DNA of 64,000 bases, taken from assembly GCF_016595525.1 (NCBI RefSeq), contig NZ_JAENII010000003.1, forward strand, positions 310,001 to 374,000. The letters are read 5' to 3'. The notes below the pieces were generated by a model. The model made no database searches. It worked only from the letters and a program-made list of their open reading frames with translations, and was not told the origin of the DNA. Below, piece by piece: positions 48,774 through 57,010 of the stretch (position 1 is the first letter of the stretch; each line of letters begins with the position of its first letter). This DNA is from Haloferula rosea (GTDB taxonomy: Bacteria > Verrucomicrobiota > Verrucomicrobiia > Verrucomicrobiales > Akkermansiaceae). The translations under genes and the position numbers were made by a program.

Positions 48774-50591
48774 CTATCGAGTAAGAACCGGATCCAGCCA
48801 GAAACCCCAGTCACTGCCCTTGCCGTCCCCGGCATCCTCGACCCGGAGTTCAAGTTCCTTCACTCCGGTCAAATCAAGGCTGTAGGATTGCACCTCCTGC
48901 CCCTGGAGCTTCTTGGAGCGCCACACCTGCTTGCCATCCGCGAAGACGACGAACACACAGCTGCCCTGAGAACCGGCCGAAACCAATCCGACATCCCCTT
49001 CGATCTTCATCCACTTCCCGCCGAGGTTCCAGCGGTGCACCGCCGGAGCGTGAGCGTAGAGACCCCGCGCATAGAGTTTCCCACCTGCCTGGATCAGGGC
49101 CTTCGGATCCGGCACCCGGTTTACCACCGGACTCCCCCACCCGACCTTCACCTCGACCGGCTTCACCACCGTCAGCGACAGCTCCCCCTCGTCAGTCGTC
49201 AGCGGATCCACCCACTTCTGTTCGTCCAGGGTGCCGACCAGAGTGGACGCCGCCTGGAGACTCCCTCCATCCACCCCCGCTTCACGGAGCCGCTCGAGCT
49301 CGCGACGGGCACCATCCTTGTCCTTGGCATTCACCTTCCCGATCAGGGTTTCGAGCAACTGCGACGACTGATGGAGTGACAGATCCACTTCCCCCGACGG
49401 CCCGACGGAATACGGAATCTCCCACGGGCTGTTCGACCCCACATAGGTCGAGCTCGCCCCGTTCACCTGGCACGCAACAATCCGGAATTCCTGGTTCCCG
49501 CCGGGGACCAGCGCATTCGCCTCGAGGACGAAGCGGCCATCGGCATCCGGCACCGCCGTGCAGGTCGTGGCGTCATAGTCGCCTCCACCCGCCGGATCCA
49601 TGTAGCCGATCAAGGCGTGGACCGGCGGATCCGCTGTCACCTTCCCAGTCACCCTGAAACCTTTCCCGACCGGCTCCACCACCAGGTCGTCGATCTTCGC
49701 CGTGGACCCCTGATCCATGCGCTTCACCGAGCCGCTGAACATCGGATGCGCCGCCAGCTTCAGCGCATGAGCGAGAGTCAGGAACGACCCCCTTCCCTCA
49801 TTTCTACGGTCTTCACCGTACGTCCGGTTTCCCGAGCCCATGAGCGCCGTGCCGAATGCCTCACGCTCGTCCGGTCGTTCACGGTTGTGGGGAAGCCCCA
49901 GGGCGTGCCCCAGTTCGTGGCAGACACCACCGATGAAGATCGAATTGTAGCGACCGATCGAGATGTGCCCGTACTGCCCGTCCCGGACTTTCGGATTCTT
50001 CTTGGCCAGACTGCCGAGTTCGAGGATCGGTGAGTCCACCTGCCAAGCGGTTCCATTGCGGTGGGAGCCACCCGCATAATATGGGCTGTTCTGATTGATC
50101 CTGCCTTTCGCCGGATCCCAGTTCGACATGTTGCAGAAGATCACGACGGTCTCCTTCCCGGGATCGATGCCCGCGGCACGCAGCGTCGGGAGACTCTCGT
50201 TCCGGATCTCCCCGCCCGAGCTTGGCCCATAGGCCGGGTAGTCCTTCCGGCCCTTCACCAGATGGATGTTGAGAAGCCCGTCATCGGAATAATCCAGACC
50301 GATGGTCCGCGGGCCGAACCCGATCCGCTGCATCTCACCCGCGTAGAAATCCCGGATGTCTTCGAGAATCGCCGTCAGACGCTCACGATGCTTCGGCGAC
50401 GGCTCACGGTCCTTGGGCGTCCAGTAGACAATGTGCAACTTGCGCTCCCCTTTCTCCGGGGACTCCTGTTCCCATTTCTCGAGGATGGCCAAGGCCGCGG
50501 GCACCTTTGCCTTGATCTCCTCTTCCGGGGACATCGCCCCCGTCACGAGAGGACAAATGCCCAGTCCGAATGCCACTAAAAGTCGTTTCAC
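48774..50591 (-). CDS. Secreted metzincin-type metallopeptidase with NPCBM module
   Basis: I chose the GTG at 50591 because a signal peptide (KRLLVAFGLGICPLVTGA) follows; the frame also has a TTG at 50627. The 605-residue product shows the full zinc motif HELGHALGLPH (H225, E226, H229, H235), the HExxHxxGxxH form of metzincins. After a middle domain of beta type and a helical stretch, the C-terminal region (about 480-605) has WGSPVVNR...GLYAHAPAVHRWNLGGKW, a recognisable NPCBM carbohydrate-binding module. A role in attacking glycoproteins or cell wall-bound proteins is inferred. Confidence 0.8.
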   Translation of the reverse strand: MKRLLVAFGLGICPLVTGAMSPEEEIKAKVPAALAILEKWEQESPEKGERKLHIVYWTPKDREPSPKHRERLTAILEDIRDFYAGEMQRIGFGPRTIGLDYSDDGLLNIHLVKGRKDYPAYGPSSGGEIRNESLPTLRAAGIDPGKETVVIFCNMSNWDPAKGRINQNSPYYAGGSHRNGTAWQVDSPILELGSLAKKNPKVRDGQYGHISIGRYNSIFIGGVCHELGHALGLPHNRERPDEREAFGTALMGSGNRTYGEDRRNEGRGSFLTLAHALKLAAHPMFSGSVKRMDQGSTAKIDDLVVEPVGKGFRVTGKVTADPPVHALIGYMDPAGGGDYDATTCTAVPDADGRFVLEANALVPGGNQEFRIVACQVNGASSTYVGSNSPWEIPYSVGPSGEVDLSLHQSSQLLETLIGKVNAKDKDGARRELERLREAGVDGGSLQAASTLVGTLDEQKWVDPLTTDEGELSLTVVKPVEVKVGWGSPVVNRVPDPKALIQAGGKLYARGLYAHAPAVHRWNLGGKWMKIEGDVGLVSAGSQGSCVFVVFADGKQVWRSKKLQGQEVQSYSLDLTGVKELELRVEDAGDGKGSDWGFWLDPVLTR

Positions 50592-50799
50592 GGCCCCAAA
50601 ACGACGCCAACCGACCAACTTATTCAAGAGTCCGTGGAATTCCCCTGCATTTCTACCGATTGGCCGACAATTGCACCCGATTCCGCCATATCCCGCGATA
50701 TCGACCGCCCACGGACCCGGTCAGCACCCCGGTGACTCGGGAATCTCCTGCCGTTTTGCGGCTTTCCTCATCGCGCATGATCGGATAGCTTTGCGGGTG

Positions 50800-51300
50800 A
50801 TGCATGAGGCCCCGGCAGACCTTTCGAACTTCCTGATCGCCAGCGTGCTCATCGCCTGGCCGACGGCCCTGCTCATGACCTGGTGGCTTCGCCGCCGCTG
50901 TGCCCGGAAACTCGAGCGCATCGGAGAAGCGAGCTCCGAGGAAATCCTTGCCGAGCTCGACACCGCCTATGCGCCCCAGAGCGGCATCACCATCCGCACC
51001 CAGACCGAGTACCTCCCCTACCTCGTCGAAACCATCCGCGAGCAGATCGATCACGGTCTCGGCGACCAACAGGTCCAATCCCTCATCGAGCGCATCGACC
51101 ACCAACGACCTCATCATGAACGACATGCGGTCTTTCCCGTCGAGAACAAGGGAGTCACCAGCAATCTGAGCCTCCAGTGGGTCCGCGACGCCCAGGACCG
51201 CATCGAACTCAAAGTGCGCGCCGCCCCCGGCATCATCCGCGCCCTGCGCAGTCACAAGAAAAGGATTCCACGAGCCAAACCCGCGCGGGTGAAAGGCTGA
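50800..51300 (+). CDS. Small single-pass membrane protein, function unknown
   Basis: A 166-residue product with one membrane segment near the N-terminus (about 9-30, NFLIASVLIAWPTALLMTWWL) followed by a charged, mainly helical or mixed domain. No family motif is visible. The ATG at 50800 precedes the hydrophobic segment; the frame runs further upstream only because it lies antisense to the metallopeptidase start. The end is 54 bases before mgtE, so co-transcription is possible. Confidence 0.6.
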   Translation: MHEAPADLSNFLIASVLIAWPTALLMTWWLRRRCARKLERIGEASSEEILAELDTAYAPQSGITIRTQTEYLPYLVETIREQIDHGLGDQQVQSLIERIDHQRPHHERHAVFPVENKGVTSNLSLQWVRDAQDRIELKVRAAPGIIRALRSHKKRIPRAKPARVKG

Positions 51301-51354
51301 GCGAATCCACCCGCTGGGCTTGCTCCGCACAGACAAGCCCCTCATGCTCCGACC

Positions 51355-52755
51355 ATGTCGGAAGAGGCAGTCATCCAGCCTGCGGAGGAGCTCGCCCGCG
51401 CCATCAAAGCCGAGGACCAAAGCGCAGTCCTCGCGGTCGCTGGCGATCTCCACTACGCCGACCTCGCCCTGGCCTACCAGGATCTCGACGAAGAACAGCG
51501 GATCATGCTGCTGAAGTCCATCGGCCCGAATCTCGCGGCCGACATGATCGTCGACCTGCCCGACTCGCTCATCGAGGAAGCCCTCGACGCGTATCGTCCG
51601 GCGGAACTCAAAGTCCTCTTCCGCGACCTTTCGGACGATGACCGCGTGGACATCCTCCAGGCCGTCGGTGATGAAGCCCGCCTGCGTTTCCTCGGACTGC
51701 TCGGACCCGAGGACGAGGAACTCACCCGTGGCCTCCTTCGCTACGAACCCGAGACCGCCGGCGGCAGGATGACCACCGGCTTCGGGCGCCTGCTCGCCTC
51801 GATGACCGTAAAACAGGCCATCGACGACCTCCGCCACAAGCAAGAGAACACCGAAACCCTGAGCCGGATGTATGTGGTCGATGCCAAGGGCCACCTGATC
51901 GGCCGGGTCCGCCTGCGCGACCTGGCTTTCAACACATGGGACACTCCGATCCGGGACATCATGGCCGAGGTGCCGCCGGAACAGCGCGTCCTCGCCACCG
52001 CCGACCAGGAGGAAGCCGCACAGATCCTCATGAAGTACGACCTCGTCGTACTTCCCGTCGTCGACGAATTCGACCACATGCTGGGCATCATCACCCACGA
52101 TGATGCGATGGACATCCTTCAGGAAGAGAGCACCGAGGACATCGAGAAGCTCGCCGGTATCGCCGGGGAGCAGGTCGAGGACACCTACCTGCAGACCAGC
52201 GTGATGACCCACTTCAAGCGGCGCTTCATCTGGCTTCTTGGTCTCGGCATGCTGGCCATCGCGTCCGGCTACGTGATGCTGCGCTTCGAAGACACCCTCA
52301 CCCAGGTCTTCCTGCTCTCGCTGTATCTGCCCATGGTTGTCGCCGCCGGCGGAAACACCGGCGGACAGGCATCCACCATGGTCATCCGCGCCATGTCGCT
52401 GGGCGAGCTCGACCCCGGCACCGCCCGCGAGGTCCTGTGGAAGGAACTTCGACTCGGCTCCCTCCTCGGCGTCCTGCTGGGCGCCTCCATTGCCGCCGTC
52501 ACCATCCTCATCCTCCCCGCCTTCCGGCCGGAGCTTCCCGAGGGTGTGAGCTTCGCCCGCTTCGGCTGCACCGTCGCCCTCGCCCTCACCGCACAAGTCA
52601 TCACCTCCACCGTCGTTGGCGCCCTGCTTCCAATCGGAGCCCGGGCCATCCGCCTGGACCCCGCCGCCGTCGCCGCACCCGCCATCACCACGCTCGTCGA
52701 TGTTTCCGGGATGGTGATTTACTTTACCATCGCCCAAGCCCTTCTTCACCTCTGA
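51355..52755 (+). CDS. mgtE: Magnesium transporter MgtE
   Basis: Mg2+ channel of the inner membrane. The 466 residues have the cytoplasmic N domain (about 1-130, with helical repeats), two CBS domains (about 140-265, including SRMYVVDAKGHLIGRVRLRDL) that sense cytoplasmic Mg2+, a connecting helix and five C-terminal membrane segments (about 290-466). PMVVAAGGNTGGQAST is the typical pore-lining segment. A 136-residue kinase-like gene begins 4 bases after its stop. Confidence 0.95.
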   Translation: MSEEAVIQPAEELARAIKAEDQSAVLAVAGDLHYADLALAYQDLDEEQRIMLLKSIGPNLAADMIVDLPDSLIEEALDAYRPAELKVLFRDLSDDDRVDILQAVGDEARLRFLGLLGPEDEELTRGLLRYEPETAGGRMTTGFGRLLASMTVKQAIDDLRHKQENTETLSRMYVVDAKGHLIGRVRLRDLAFNTWDTPIRDIMAEVPPEQRVLATADQEEAAQILMKYDLVVLPVVDEFDHMLGIITHDDAMDILQEESTEDIEKLAGIAGEQVEDTYLQTSVMTHFKRRFIWLLGLGMLAIASGYVMLRFEDTLTQVFLLSLYLPMVVAAGGNTGGQASTMVIRAMSLGELDPGTAREVLWKELRLGSLLGVLLGASIAAVTILILPAFRPELPEGVSFARFGCTVALALTAQVITSTVVGALLPIGARAIRLDPAAVAAPAITTLVDVSGMVIYFTIAQALLHL

Positions 52756-52759
52756 CCTC

Positions 52760-53170
52760 ATGAGAGAACTCAAAGACGGAATTCGCGCCCACGTTCGCCT
52801 CGACTGGATGAACCGCGTCCACAAACGCTTCCGCGGCACGGATGCGGACAAACGCTACGCCACCGAAATCGAGGTGCTCAAGGAGTTGGAGAAACGCGGC
52901 TGTCCCAACGTGCCCAAGGTGCTCGAGGAATATCCGGAGGAGAACTATTTCGTCAGCACCTCCTGCGGCAAACCGGCGCCGAACATCAGCAAGAAGCGCG
53001 CCGCCGAACTCTTCGCCGAGCTGGAAGCCAAATACGGCGTGCGCCACCTCGATGCCGCGCCGCGCAACATCACCTACGACCCGCATGCCGGTCGCTTCTG
53101 CATCATCGACTTCGAGCTCGCCGAGATCCTTCCCGACCCAAGCGAGCCAGCTGAAGAAACCTCGCTGTAG
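52760..53170 (+). CDS. Minimal protein-kinase-like protein
   Basis: A 136-residue cytoplasmic protein that looks like a reduced kinase fold. It has a possible beta-3 lysine (K22 in VHKRF), a helix-C glutamate (E36 in YATEIEVLKEL), a hinge-like segment (ENYFVSTSCGKP) and HLDAAPRN at 96-103, where D98 and N103 fit the catalytic loop. DFEL at 117-120 takes the place of the DFG magnesium motif. The glycine-rich loop and the whole C-terminal lobe beyond the activation segment are missing, so catalysis is uncertain. It starts 4 bases after mgtE. Possible roles are as a regulator or a small phosphotransferase. Confidence 0.6.
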   Translation: MRELKDGIRAHVRLDWMNRVHKRFRGTDADKRYATEIEVLKELEKRGCPNVPKVLEEYPEENYFVSTSCGKPAPNISKKRAAELFAELEAKYGVRHLDAAPRNITYDPHAGRFCIIDFELAEILPDPSEPAEETSL

Positions 53171-53227
53171 CCAAGTTGAAGGGACCCGGTTCACCCCCAC
53201 GACGCAACCCCTCGGTTCCACCCCCGA

Positions 53228-53453
53228 CCCCAACCGGGCGTCATCCCCCAGCCCCAACGGGGCGACACCCCTCAGCCCAGGGCAACGCCCTGGGTAACCA
53301 TCCCGCACCATTCCGGAGCCCTGAAGGGGCGACATCCCATCGCAAACCCCGCATCGCCCAATAGATCGCCCTTTCTTTCAGGGCTCCAATCCCGCGACCC
53401 CCCCCAATCCCAGGGCGGTGCCCTGGGCTAATGAATCTTGCCCCTTTGGGGCA
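53228..53453. repeat. Composite palindromic repeat island (REP/BIME-like)
   Basis: The gap between the kinase-like gene and thrB carries a series of short palindromic units. Left half: CCCCAACCGGGCG (53230-53240), GCCCCAACGGGGC (53251-53263), CCCAGGGC-AAC-GCCCTGGG (53276-53294) and GCCCTGAAGGGGC (53318-53330). Right half, inverted: CGCCC...CAGGGCTCC (53367-53386), CCCAGGGC-GGT-GCCCTGGG (53409-53427) and GCCCC-TTT-GGGGC (53440-53452). The order A-A-B-C then C'-B'-A' makes the island a large inverted repeat. Such units recur in Planctomycetes and Verrucomicrobia genomes. No transposase is nearby. The rest of the gap (53171-53227, 53454-53636) shows nothing. Confidence 0.75.
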
Positions 53454-53636
53454 GGCCCCGGCGTCCGACCGCTGCAACCGGTTCCAACACCACCTTTCCC
53501 GCGCCACCCGTCCGATCCTCGATCGACCCTGTTGCGGATCCGGACCGGTGCCCCTCACGCCTCCCCCAGCCCGTCCCTGTCATCCCCGCACCCGGGATTC
53601 GACAATCCTGCGCCTTGCTGCTAAGCACCGCGCCCC

Positions 53637-54599
53637 ATGCTCAAAGAAGCCGTTCAGGAAGTGCGCGTTTTTGCCCCGGCCACCGTGGCAAATGTCGCTT
53701 GTGGCTACGACGTCCTCGGATTTGCGATCGACTCGCCCGGGGATGAAGTGGTCGTCCGCCACTGTGACAAACCCGGCCTGCACATCACCTCCATCACCGG
53801 AGACGACGGCAAGCTGCCCAAGGCCCCCGAAAAGAACACCGCCGGCGTCGCCGCCCTCGATCTGCTCCGCCACCTCGGCATGACCGATCGCGGCATCGAG
53901 ATGGAGATTCACAAGAAAATGCCCTTCGGCTCCGGCCTCGGCTCATCCGCCGCTTCCGCCGTCGCCGGCGCCTATGCGGTGAACAAACTCATCGGCGAGC
54001 CACTGTCCAAAAAGCAGCTCCTTCCCTTCGCCATGGCCGGGGAAGCCTCGGCCGATGGCGCATGGCACGCCGACAACGTCGCCCCCTGCCTTCTCGGTGG
54101 CATCGTCTTCATCCGCAGCAACGACGAACTCGACGTCTCCCAGCTCCCCGCCCCCGACAACCTCTGGGCCGCCGTCGTCCACCCCGACATCGAGATCCTC
54201 ACCAAGGTCGCGCGTGAGATCCTGCCCGTCGACATCCCCGTCGCCAACGCCACCCAGCAGATCGGCAACCTCGGCGGCCTGCTCTGCGGCATCATCCAGT
54301 CTGACTACGGCCTGATCTCCCGCTCAATCCACGACGTCATCGCCGAGCCGCGCCGCCAAAAGCTCATCCCCGAGTTCTACAAGGCCAAGCGGGCCGCCCA
54401 AGGCGCCGGAGCCCTCGGCTTCTCCATCTCGGGTGCCGGCCCGTCCGTCTTCGCCCTGTGCGAAGGTGAAGAGACCGCACAAAAGGTAGGCGCCGCCGTT
54501 TCGAAAGTGTTCACCGACATCAAGCTCGGCAACCAGACCTACGTCTCGAAGATCAATCCACACGGCGTGCACGTGGTGGAGGAAAAGGCATCCAGCTAA
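53637..54599 (+). CDS. thrB: Homoserine kinase
   Basis: GHMP kinase that phosphorylates homoserine on the way to threonine. The 320 residues include VFAPATVANVACGYDVLGFA (11-30), the GHMP phosphate loop MPFGSGLGSSAASAVAG (95-111) and GAGALGFSISGAGPSVFAL (about 261-279), the third GHMP motif. The ATG at 53637 fits the family start. It is followed by thrC after 9 bases, so the two form an operon. The upstream repeat island separates it from mgtE. Confidence 0.95.
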   Translation: MLKEAVQEVRVFAPATVANVACGYDVLGFAIDSPGDEVVVRHCDKPGLHITSITGDDGKLPKAPEKNTAGVAALDLLRHLGMTDRGIEMEIHKKMPFGSGLGSSAASAVAGAYAVNKLIGEPLSKKQLLPFAMAGEASADGAWHADNVAPCLLGGIVFIRSNDELDVSQLPAPDNLWAAVVHPDIEILTKVAREILPVDIPVANATQQIGNLGGLLCGIIQSDYGLISRSIHDVIAEPRRQKLIPEFYKAKRAAQGAGALGFSISGAGPSVFALCEGEETAQKVGAAVSKVFTDIKLGNQTYVSKINPHGVHVVEEKASS

Positions 54600-54608
54600 G
54601 CCGGACCG

Positions 54609-55901
54609 ATGCTCTACCATTCCACCAACGACCCCTCCCACCGCGTCCCGCTGAAGGAAGCCATCCTGCGCTCCCTGCCACCGGACAACGGCCTCTACAT
54701 GCCCGATACCCTGCCGGTCCTCGGTGAGGACTTCTGGAAGGTCTGGCGGGACCTGTCCTTTCAGGAAATCGGCTACGCCGTGGCTGAAGCCTTCTTCGGT
54801 GAGGATGTGCCGGAGGATGCACTCAGCGAAATCGTCGATGGCACCCTCGAGTTCGACGCCCCGCTCGTCGCCATTGGCAAGGACAACCACGTCCTCGAGC
54901 TTTTCCACGGCCCCACACTCGCCTTCAAGGACTTCGGGGCGCGCTTCATGGCCCGCCTGATGAGCTGGCTCACCCGCGACGAGGACCGCATGCTGACCGT
55001 GCTCGTCGCCACCTCCGGTGACACCGGCGGAGCGGTGGCCTCCGCCTTCCACAACGTCCCCGGCACCCGCGTCGTCATCCTTTACCCGAAGGGAAAAGTC
55101 TCCGGACTGCAGGAGAAGCAGCTCACCACCCTTGGCGGCAACATCGAGGCCATCGAGATCGACGGCACCTTCGACGACTGCCAGCGCCTGGTGAAGTCCG
55201 CCTTCCTCGACCGCGAGCTGTCCGAGCGTCTGAACCTCACCTCGGCCAACTCGATCAACCTCTCGCGCCTCGTCCCGCAGTCTTTCTACTACATCCATAG
55301 TGCGAAGACCCTGGACAACCCGCCGGCCTTCGTCATCCCGTCCGGCAACTTCGGCAATCTGACCGCCGGCCTGTTGGCCCGCCAACTCGGACTCCCCGTC
55401 GCCAAGTTCGTCGCCGCGACGAACATCAACGACGTCGTCCCGAGCTACCTCGCCAGCGGCGAATACCAACCCCAGCCCAGCCAGTCGACCATCTCGAACG
55501 CGATGGACGTCGGAGCCCCCTCGAACTTCGCCCGCATGCAGGCCCTGTTCGGCGATTCATGGGATGAGATGGCAGCCGTCATTGATGGTCTCGCCTTCAA
55601 CGATGAGGAGACCCGTGCGATGATCCGCCGGACCCACGTGGAAAGCGGCTACGCGATCGACCCGCACGGAGCCGTCGGCCTGCTCGCGGCAGAAGCCTGG
55701 CGACTCGCCCATCCGGGCACCCCGACCATCACCTTGGAAACCGCGCATCCCGCCAAGTTCCTCGACGTCATGGAGCAGGAACTCGGAACCGGCAGCGTCG
55801 CGATCCCCGAACGTCTCGCCATCCTCGCGGACCGGGAAAAAGTGGCGGGATCGATGGGAGCCGACGAATCAGCCTTCAAGGACTGGCTGCAAACGCGCTA
55901 A
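54609..55901 (+). CDS. thrC: Threonine synthase
   Basis: PLP enzyme that converts O-phosphohomoserine to threonine. The 430 residues have GPTLAFKDFGARFM with the PLP lysine K107, the phosphate-binding ATSGDTGGAVASAF segment, and IPSGNFGNLTAG, the PLP ring-binding loop. The N-terminus (MLYHSTNDPSHRVPLKEAIL) is that of the E. coli-type enzyme. The start is 9 bases after thrB. The next gene starts 8 bases after its stop. Confidence 0.95.
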   Translation: MLYHSTNDPSHRVPLKEAILRSLPPDNGLYMPDTLPVLGEDFWKVWRDLSFQEIGYAVAEAFFGEDVPEDALSEIVDGTLEFDAPLVAIGKDNHVLELFHGPTLAFKDFGARFMARLMSWLTRDEDRMLTVLVATSGDTGGAVASAFHNVPGTRVVILYPKGKVSGLQEKQLTTLGGNIEAIEIDGTFDDCQRLVKSAFLDRELSERLNLTSANSINLSRLVPQSFYYIHSAKTLDNPPAFVIPSGNFGNLTAGLLARQLGLPVAKFVAATNINDVVPSYLASGEYQPQPSQSTISNAMDVGAPSNFARMQALFGDSWDEMAAVIDGLAFNDEETRAMIRRTHVESGYAIDPHGAVGLLAAEAWRLAHPGTPTITLETAHPAKFLDVMEQELGTGSVAIPERLAILADREKVAGSMGADESAFKDWLQTR

Positions 55902-55909
55902 GCTCCGGC

Positions 55910-57010
55910 GTGGCTGTCCTGCGCTCGCTCCTCTTCCTCTTCCTGCTTGGGCTTCCCCTGCGCGCCCATGTCGTCGAGCAATTCTACGTCAAAGTCCTGA
56001 CCCAAACCGAGGGTTGGCAGCTCGAAGTCTTCTTCGACGTCGGCTATGCCAACCCCGACTGGCGCGGCGAACCGGACACCCCACAACCCACACGCGACTG
56101 GCTGCTCGCACGCACCCCTGCCGAGCACGCGGCATTCCGAGCCGAGACGGAAACCTACCTGCGCGACTGCATGGGCTTCAACGGCTCCGACGAACCGCTC
56201 GAAGTCGTTTACCGCTTTCCGGACTTCGACAGCACACCGCCCGATTTCCCCGAACGACTCACCGGTGGCGCCTACTATCGGGTGCTGATCGAGCCAGCCA
56301 CCGCCCTTCCTTTCGAAAGCCGGATCTGGATTGCACAAACCGACACCCCGGACTTCGTCCTCGAGGTGCCTGATGCATCGCTGGGAGACTCGGGCTTCGT
56401 CACCCTGTCACCCGGCGACTCCATGCCACTGCCGCGGGCGAACGAAACCGCCCCCGCCACCCGCGGCGCGCAGACCCACGCCTTCATCGAAGGATTCCGC
56501 CACGTCGTCCCTCTCGGCCTCGATCACATCCTCTTCATCCTCGCCCTCTTCCTGCTCCAGCGCTCGCTGCGCCCCCTGCTCTGGCAATCCCTGACCTTCA
56601 CGGTCGCCCACACGGTCACGCTGGGATTGACCGCATCCGGGATCATCTCACCACCCGCCCAGTGGATCGAGCCCATCATCGCGCTCAGCATCGTCGCCCT
56701 CGCGGTTGAAAACCTCATCGTCAAGGAGCCCAGCCGCTGGCGCTACCTCATGGTCTTCCTCTTCGGGCTGATCCACGGCATGGGCTTCGCCAATGCGCTG
56801 GCCTCCATCGTCAACGTAGGCGATGGCTTCCTGGCCCGCCTGGTGGCCGCCAACCTCGGCGTGGAATGCGCCCAGGTCGCCATCCTCGCGGCCGCGTGGC
56901 TGCTGACCATCGGCTGGCACCGGAAATCCAGCTACGACCGGCTACGCGCGGGAGCCAATATCGCCATCGCAGGCATCGCGCTGATCTGGTTCGTCCAGCG
57001 CATCGCCTGA
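55910..57010 (+). CDS. HupE/UreJ family membrane protein
   Basis: A 366-residue protein with a signal-like N-terminus, an extracytoplasmic domain of about 185 residues, and a membrane region with about six segments. The HVVPLGLDHILFILALFLL segment (about 200-220) matches the histidine-rich family motif seen in HupE/UreJ proteins, with further histidines in FTVAHTVTLGL and LIHGMGFANAL. HupE/UreJ members are associated with nickel or cobalt uptake; the domain with the extended N-terminal part is less well known. It starts with GTG 8 bases after thrC, which may be chance. It converges on the amidase gene after 7 bases. Confidence 0.8.
   Translation: MAVLRSLLFLFLLGLPLRAHVVEQFYVKVLTQTEGWQLEVFFDVGYANPDWRGEPDTPQPTRDWLLARTPAEHAAFRAETETYLRDCMGFNGSDEPLEVVYRFPDFDSTPPDFPERLTGGAYYRVLIEPATALPFESRIWIAQTDTPDFVLEVPDASLGDSGFVTLSPGDSMPLPRANETAPATRGAQTHAFIEGFRHVVPLGLDHILFILALFLLQRSLRPLLWQSLTFTVAHTVTLGLTASGIISPPAQWIEPIIALSIVALAVENLIVKEPSRWRYLMVFLFGLIHGMGFANALASIVNVGDGFLARLVAANLGVECAQVAILAAAWLLTIGWHRKSSYDRLRAGANIAIAGIALIWFVQRIA

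Follow-up and report, generated by a model that had tools for sequence, protein, structure and literature searches.

A mini-kinase of Haloferula rosea linked in its relatives to a PP2C phosphatase and type II glutamine synthetase: a candidate switch on nitrogen assimilation in Verrucomicrobiae

A small gene of Haloferula rosea that starts just behind the magnesium transporter gene mgtE encodes a kinase-like protein whose relatives are strongly linked, at the genomic level, to a PP2C-type phosphatase and to a type II glutamine synthetase (GSII). Among 288 genomes of the phylum, the kinase (E<1e-40), one PP2C subfamily (E<1e-79) and close GSII (E<1e-150) were all found in an identical set of 52, with cut-offs that were set afterwards, in gaps seen in the results. 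We consider it probable, though with considerable reserve, that a minimal ATP-dependent kinase (the writer) and the PP2C (the eraser) make up a switch on nitrogen assimilation, most likely acting via GSII. The analysis started from a stretch of 64,000 nucleotides (hereafter, the window), in which the following features are relevant.

51355-52755, plus strand: mgtE, magnesium transporter gene and upstream neighbour; 466 aa with MgtE_N, CBS and MgtE domains
52760-53170, plus strand: mini-kinase gene, the subject of this report; open reading frame of 136 aa with a Pfam APH match
52823-52825, plus strand: codon of K22, the expected beta3 lysine (VHK); invariant, in strand 19-24 of the model
52865-52867, plus strand: codon of E36, the expected helix-C glutamate; invariant, in helix 29-45 of the model
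53045-53068, plus strand: catalytic-loop-like motif HLDAAPRN, residues 96-103; H96, D98, R102 and N103 invariant
53108-53116, plus strand: DFE motif replacing DFG, residues 117-119; D117 and E119 invariant, F118 in 112/113

The upstream product matches Pfam families PF03448, PF00571 and PF01769 as well as TIGR00400 (E 7e-92), and the string TGA-CCTC-ATG joins its stop codon to the kinase start, 4 bases apart. The coordinates of the open reading frame thus agree with the first-pass annotation, which had described a kinase-like protein of 136 residues starting 4 bases past mgtE. The mini-kinase gene is a real gene rather than a chance open reading frame, since homologues are present in 53 of 57 related genomes (weakest E 1.2e-29). 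The protein scores 27.8 bits against Pfam APH (cut-off 23.2), a family matched by 21/21 class-wide kinase members at E<=0.01, and 16.7 bits against Pkinase (PF00069), which is under the curated cut-off of 31.7. Conservation was assessed in an alignment of 113 rows out of 122 extracted loci plus the window; several rows are near-copies, and 112 are distinct, as the window protein and that of locus L136 are identical and were counted twice. K22, E36, H96, D98, R102, N103, T105, Y106, D117 and E119 never vary in these rows. HLDAAPRN and the DFE in place of DFG, both named in the first-pass annotation, were located in the protein, and K22 and E36, its proposed lysine-glutamate pair, lie where it had put them and are invariant in 113/113 aligned rows.

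An AlphaFold2 model built from 51 sequences (49 of the 80 named loci introduced below, the window and locus L120) reached a pLDDT of 93.2 and a pTM of 0.86. It consists of three N-terminal strands, helix 29-45, two further strands, a helix at 78-92 that corresponds in position to helix E, the catalytic loop and strands flanking DFE, and it ends at strand 121-123 with no later element. Neither a Hanks-type glycine-rich loop nor an activation segment nor helices F to I is seen in the model of the 136-aa protein. The earlier statement that the glycine loop is lacking therefore holds as far as GxGxxG is concerned, but a beta1-beta2 hairpin with a short turn (residues 7-9) exists; likewise, the C-terminal lobe, which had been described as lacking, is missing in part: there is no activation segment and there are no helices F to I, but the model does contain helix 78-92 and the catalytic loop, as well as strands on both sides of DFE. 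Structure prediction, which had been suggested as a check, yielded a kinase fold that solved kinases match over almost its full length. Foldseek returned CK2 alpha, the archaeal RNA kinase ArkI and PRPK/Bud32 at E of about 5e-6 to 1e-5. When Foldseek's own matches were re-aligned, 1000/1000 of these preselected chains had Z>=5, the best being CDKL1 (Z 13.5, 119 residues, 3.0 A), followed by a pre-40S chain and PRPK (both Z 12.8), and the top re-alignments cover 112-126 residues. ArkI (8yv4/8yv5, 171-173 aa; Foldseek E 5e-6 to 9e-6) has a TM-score of 0.67-0.68 by query and 0.54-0.55 by target and Z 12.0 over 112 residues; other kinases score alike. A sequence search against solved structures gave weak matches only, mostly in the catalytic-loop region (CDC7, CK2 and others). 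Conservation and the predicted structure together support a kinase-fold protein with an apparently intact ATP/metal-site signature, and the mini-kinase may well be catalytically active. That it phosphorylates proteins is not certain, since neither a glycine loop nor a lower lobe for substrate binding is present.

The first recurrent partner is the phosphatase. In several genera the kinase forms the N-terminal third of a protein of ~400 residues, the remainder of which is a PP2C phosphatase. PF13672 was found in 3/3 fused proteins scanned, and the PP2C motif residues D57, G58, D219 and D259 are invariant in 10/10 aligned sequences. For the fused protein of Roseibacillus persicicus (8 sequences), one AlphaFold model had a mean pLDDT of 84.9 and the other four 65-68; the phosphatase part of the best model aligned with PstP and tPphA at Z 28-29 (29.1 to PstP). 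When the PP2C was compared by profile with solved structures, the best matches were chains titled tPphA, a homologue of cyanobacterial PphA. Among the named loci, which are the best 80 of 302 relatives, a PP2C is present in 56, seven times fused and once about 2.7 kb off. A kinase-PP2C fusion also occurs in L120, a contig filed as viral; it looks chromosomal, with a glutamine synthetase and a gene that by eye is ribonucleotide-reductase-like, and it may be bacterial chromosome, so that it was dropped as phage evidence. Across the 57 relatives, the PP2C subfamily (counted as present at E<1e-30) occurs in 52 of the 53 genomes with the kinase and in 0/4 of the others; the lone exception is 61% complete, and G019 and G040 carry weaker PP2Cs only. 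Of the 52 genomes that hold all three genes, 48 have the PP2C gene fused to the kinase gene or directly downstream of it. The four remaining cases (G000, G003, G010 and G026) are all mgtE-linked. There, the PP2C is divergent from GSII at 214-244 bp by match coordinates and holds the place beside GSII that the kinase has elsewhere; in the window's genome, the two genes lie together at G000:C2:19199-21238.

GSII completes the trio. Kinase matches were obtained in 53/288 genomes, the weak one being G256 (E 1.9e-9), and the next PP2C match below the 52 has E 1e-60. GSII without the kinase was found in 6/288 genomes, outside the class, at 60-63% identity and E 1e-126 to 1e-139, which leaves a modest gap to the 52 GSII genomes (2e-156 vs 1e-139). 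In 38/52 genomes the synthetase gene lies upstream of the kinase, less than 600 bp away and divergent from it; in 5/52 it is co-directional behind kinase and PP2C, and in 9/52 it is away from the kinase, so that it neighbours the kinase/PP2C pair in 43/52. Families f1, f9 and f14 each mix genomes having all three genes with genomes having none. In the set of 57 relatives, GSII is present in 52 of the 53 that carry the kinase (the one missing is 69% complete) and in 2/4 others, G021 and G033. A glutamine synthetase occurs in 48 of the best 80 loci of 302, while four of these loci have none of mgtE, PP2C and glutamine synthetase and two have glutamine synthetase only, some being cut by contig ends. 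The genomic link between kinase, PP2C and GSII is strong, in searches centred on the window's phylum and with co-occurrence statistics that are inflated by clade-level sharing. As a separate observation, locus L172 (G256:C239), outside the class, has a distant DFE-type kinase-like domain at the C-terminus of what looks by eye like a 455-aa methyltransferase-like protein.

That the synthetase belongs to type II was examined for one representative: its best model by a wide margin is NF041605 (GlnII; E 4e-111), where its 371 bits stay below the equivalog cut-off of 500, and its 16 PDB matches, of 344-423 residues, are all named glutamine synthetase and are, we assume, type II enzymes. GSII is the sole PF00120 match (E<=1e-10) in 37 of the 53 relatives with the kinase, including the window's genome; 12 have an extra, longer glutamine synthetase, two have two GSII-like copies and two incomplete ones have none. 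PF00120 scores GSII at only about 1e-11 to 1e-18, and divergent glutamine synthetase genes may escape this count. When 75 GSII sequences from kinase-bearing genomes were compared with 7 others, 19 positions set the two groups apart. Of these, three (T236, Y247 and Y311) are threonine or tyrosine in 74-75 of the 75 and differ in 7/7 others, with Y247 being T in 3 of these 7. Such residues are at most a hint and are too few to name a phosphosite.

Nitrogen assimilation has its gate in glutamine synthetase, a textbook target of covalent enzyme regulation through GlnE, the classical modifying enzyme, which adenylylates type I glutamine synthetase. GlnD is present in 52/52 genomes with the trio. 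GlnE is found in 2/52 of them vs 13/16 genomes that have GlnD but not the trio (Fisher p 1.7e-9, uncorrected for phylogeny), after exclusion of a GlnE match in G271 that sits inside that genome's GlnD reading frame. The trio and GlnE are thus nearly complementary. Given these counts, a kinase/PP2C pair in the place of GlnE would be a coherent reading. The mini-kinase would phosphorylate, and the PP2C dephosphorylate, a target that is most likely the GSII encoded next to them, or else another nitrogen-control protein, and this switch would stand in for GlnE in these bacteria. The proposal resembles the GlnE system in that it posits reversible covalent control of glutamine synthetase in cells with GlnD, but it differs in the enzymes, the chemistry and the type of synthetase, and its kinase and PP2C domains are separate or fused. 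That GSII, rather than PII or another protein, would be the substrate is something we infer, and PII, the PP2C itself or an unlinked protein are possible alternatives. The input signal might be PII/GlnD, 2-oxoglutarate or ATP/Mg2+, and the effect on the target could run in either direction. PII control of GSII could suffice by itself, GlnD and PII both being present. For a verrucomicrobial methanotroph, glnA, glnB, glnD and glnK have been listed (PMC3404531).

Instead of GSII, the pair might modify PII. In cyanobacteria, PphA removes the phosphate from PII (Ser49), and the PII kinase was unidentified according to a 2015 review (PMC4285133). The likeness lies in a closely matching PP2C fold, reflected in the tPphA-titled profile matches, and in the nitrogen-control setting. 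PII is moreover encoded in 54/57 relatives, its T-loop reads YRGSEY in the six genomes looked at, and in three genomes of the window's genus (G007, G009 and G012; loci L173, L174 and L175) the mgtE-kinase pair has a PII gene some 4-6 kb away. However, PII with an identical T-loop is present in G021 and G040, both of which are without the kinase, and GlnD, the usual PII-modifying enzyme, accompanies the trio throughout. Kinase and PP2C are mostly located at GSII, so that the genomic partner differs from that of the cyanobacterial system, and a candidate kinase is present here. We therefore regard PII as an unlikely target.

It is also rather unlikely that the mini-kinase, in the manner of Bud32 or a pseudo-enzyme, regulates the PP2C as an ATP-binding subunit or serves as its ATPase, with no phosphate transfer to GSII. 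Such a role would fit the repeated fusion to PP2C, the missing substrate-binding lower lobe and the structural similarity to PRPK/Bud32 and RIO kinases (Z 10-13). Most pseudokinases, however, do not keep all catalytic residues, and here none of these residues, the catalytic Asp included, varies among the 112 distinct sequences.

A role in the regulation of MgtE or of magnesium homeostasis, one of two options put forward in the first-pass annotation, draws on gene order. An mgtE gene lies within 200 bp upstream of the kinase in 16/18 genomes of the window's genus and also in G026, and it is directly upstream in 18 of the best 80 of 302 loci, in five of which the mgtE stop overlaps the kinase ATG by eye. 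Glutamine synthetase, PP2C and kinases, furthermore, all use Mg2+. Conservation of the mgtE pair, which had been suggested as a check, does not extend through the class, and partners elsewhere are PP2C and GSII; neither a PP2C nor a glutamine synthetase gene is present in any of the 18 mgtE-linked named loci. Among the 57 relatives, mgtE (E<1e-100) occurs in 41/53 genomes with the kinase vs 3/4 without it (Fisher p=1.0), where three of the 12 kinase-bearing genomes lacking mgtE are incomplete assemblies. From the counts in these relatives it follows that the kinase tracks PP2C and GSII better than mgtE. In the kinase tree, the mgtE-linked genes fall into two groups inside one family, but the tree is short and poorly resolved: 52/106 inner branches are open, the mgtE label has to change no fewer than five times, and L111 was scored as not mgtE-linked although it begins 52 bases from a contig end. 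No Rfam family reached the gathering threshold within 50500-54700, the region around mgtE, and a magnesium riboswitch was dropped from consideration. Co-occurrence and gene context led us to demote an MgtE-specific regulator: dedicated control of MgtE appears improbable, the mini-kinase gene can be accounted for without a direct effect on MgtE, though one may occur, and the other option in that annotation, a regulator of another protein, proved the better half of the guess in view of the association with PP2C and GSII.

The position next to mgtE, seen in the window's genus and in a neighbouring lineage, looks derived. A simple history would be that the kinase gene left the interval between GSII and PP2C and ended up behind mgtE, and the proposed switch would then operate in these bacteria with the PP2C and GSII genes together elsewhere. 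As the pair with mgtE is kept in nearly all genomes of the genus, selection has likely favoured, or at any rate tolerated, its co-expression. Two genera in which kinase and PP2C are fused (loci L165 of G023 and L166 of G032) have mgtE on the strand of the fused gene, some 6.2 kb upstream of it and separated by genes that by eye encode a Rex repressor, a sigma factor and others; mgtE may have been a distant neighbour first and adjacent later. At loci L043 and L039, which are possible intermediates, the kinase and glutamine synthetase genes converge, and at L043 the PP2C lies beyond the synthetase gene, facing away from it.

In known cases, PP2C enzymes are protein phosphatases, and with PP2C as the usual partner it is highly improbable that the mini-kinase phosphorylates RNA or a small molecule, in spite of the APH matches and of ArkI being a small kinase fold among the nearest solved structures. 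ArkI phosphorylates tRNA (U47) and has KptA as its reported eraser, a PP2C partner not being mentioned in the accessible part of that report (PMC9095486).

Other known systems and origins were compared as well. The kinase-kinase-phosphatase (KKP) modules of prophages likewise pair kinases with a PF13672 PP2C phosphatase but comprise two kinases, both PF00069, along with FHA and CSD domains (PMC11341870), whereas here a single kinase of 130 aa lies next to a housekeeping gene. A phage 'kinase' family, PHROG 3297 (profile of 160 positions), matches residues 18-121 of the window protein at E 3.7e-5; this is a phage family, and the window protein has no convincing phage relative by tblastn. A phage origin was rejected, tblastn in phages having given matches at E 7-8 only (18 records), as was a defence system, for which PADLOC matches were weak and partial. 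A literature search judged on titles and abstract openings, with subscription papers mostly outside its scope, found no description of the kinase-PP2C-GSII trio.

Several features of the neighbourhood are recorded in their own right. Two perfect GC-rich palindromes, CCCAGGGC-NNN-GCCCTGGG, at 53276-53294 and 53409-53427 of the window (0.07 expected by chance in the window), lie in the gap between the mini-kinase gene and the homoserine-kinase-like gene; among 181 loci, they matched just two copies of this same locus. Downstream, 53637-57010 encodes a GHMP kinase, presumably homoserine-kinase-like, threonine synthase and a HupE/UreJ protein. On the minus strand, 48774-50627 encodes a protein of 617 aa that has an NPCBM domain and matches metallopeptidases weakly.

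In its fullest form, our proposal is that a dedicated kinase of ~130 residues and a PP2C, sometimes on one polypeptide, exert phospho-control over GSII in Verrucomicrobiae as a GlnD/PII-fed counterpart of the GlnE cascade, and that operon wiring with mgtE couples Mg2+ uptake to nitrogen assimilation in the window's lineage; we put this forward tentatively, as a scheme that could well fail in part. In the sampled set, 50/52 genomes of the class that carry this GSII do so without GlnE, and the co-inherited kinase/phosphatase pair, mostly encoded beside GSII, provides two named candidate enzymes for its control. The mini-kinase would add a very small conserved kinase domain that bears on how little of the fold phosphotransfer may need. 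Taken as a whole, the trio suggests a switch, undescribed as far as we found, for the control of nitrogen assimilation in a large bacterial group.
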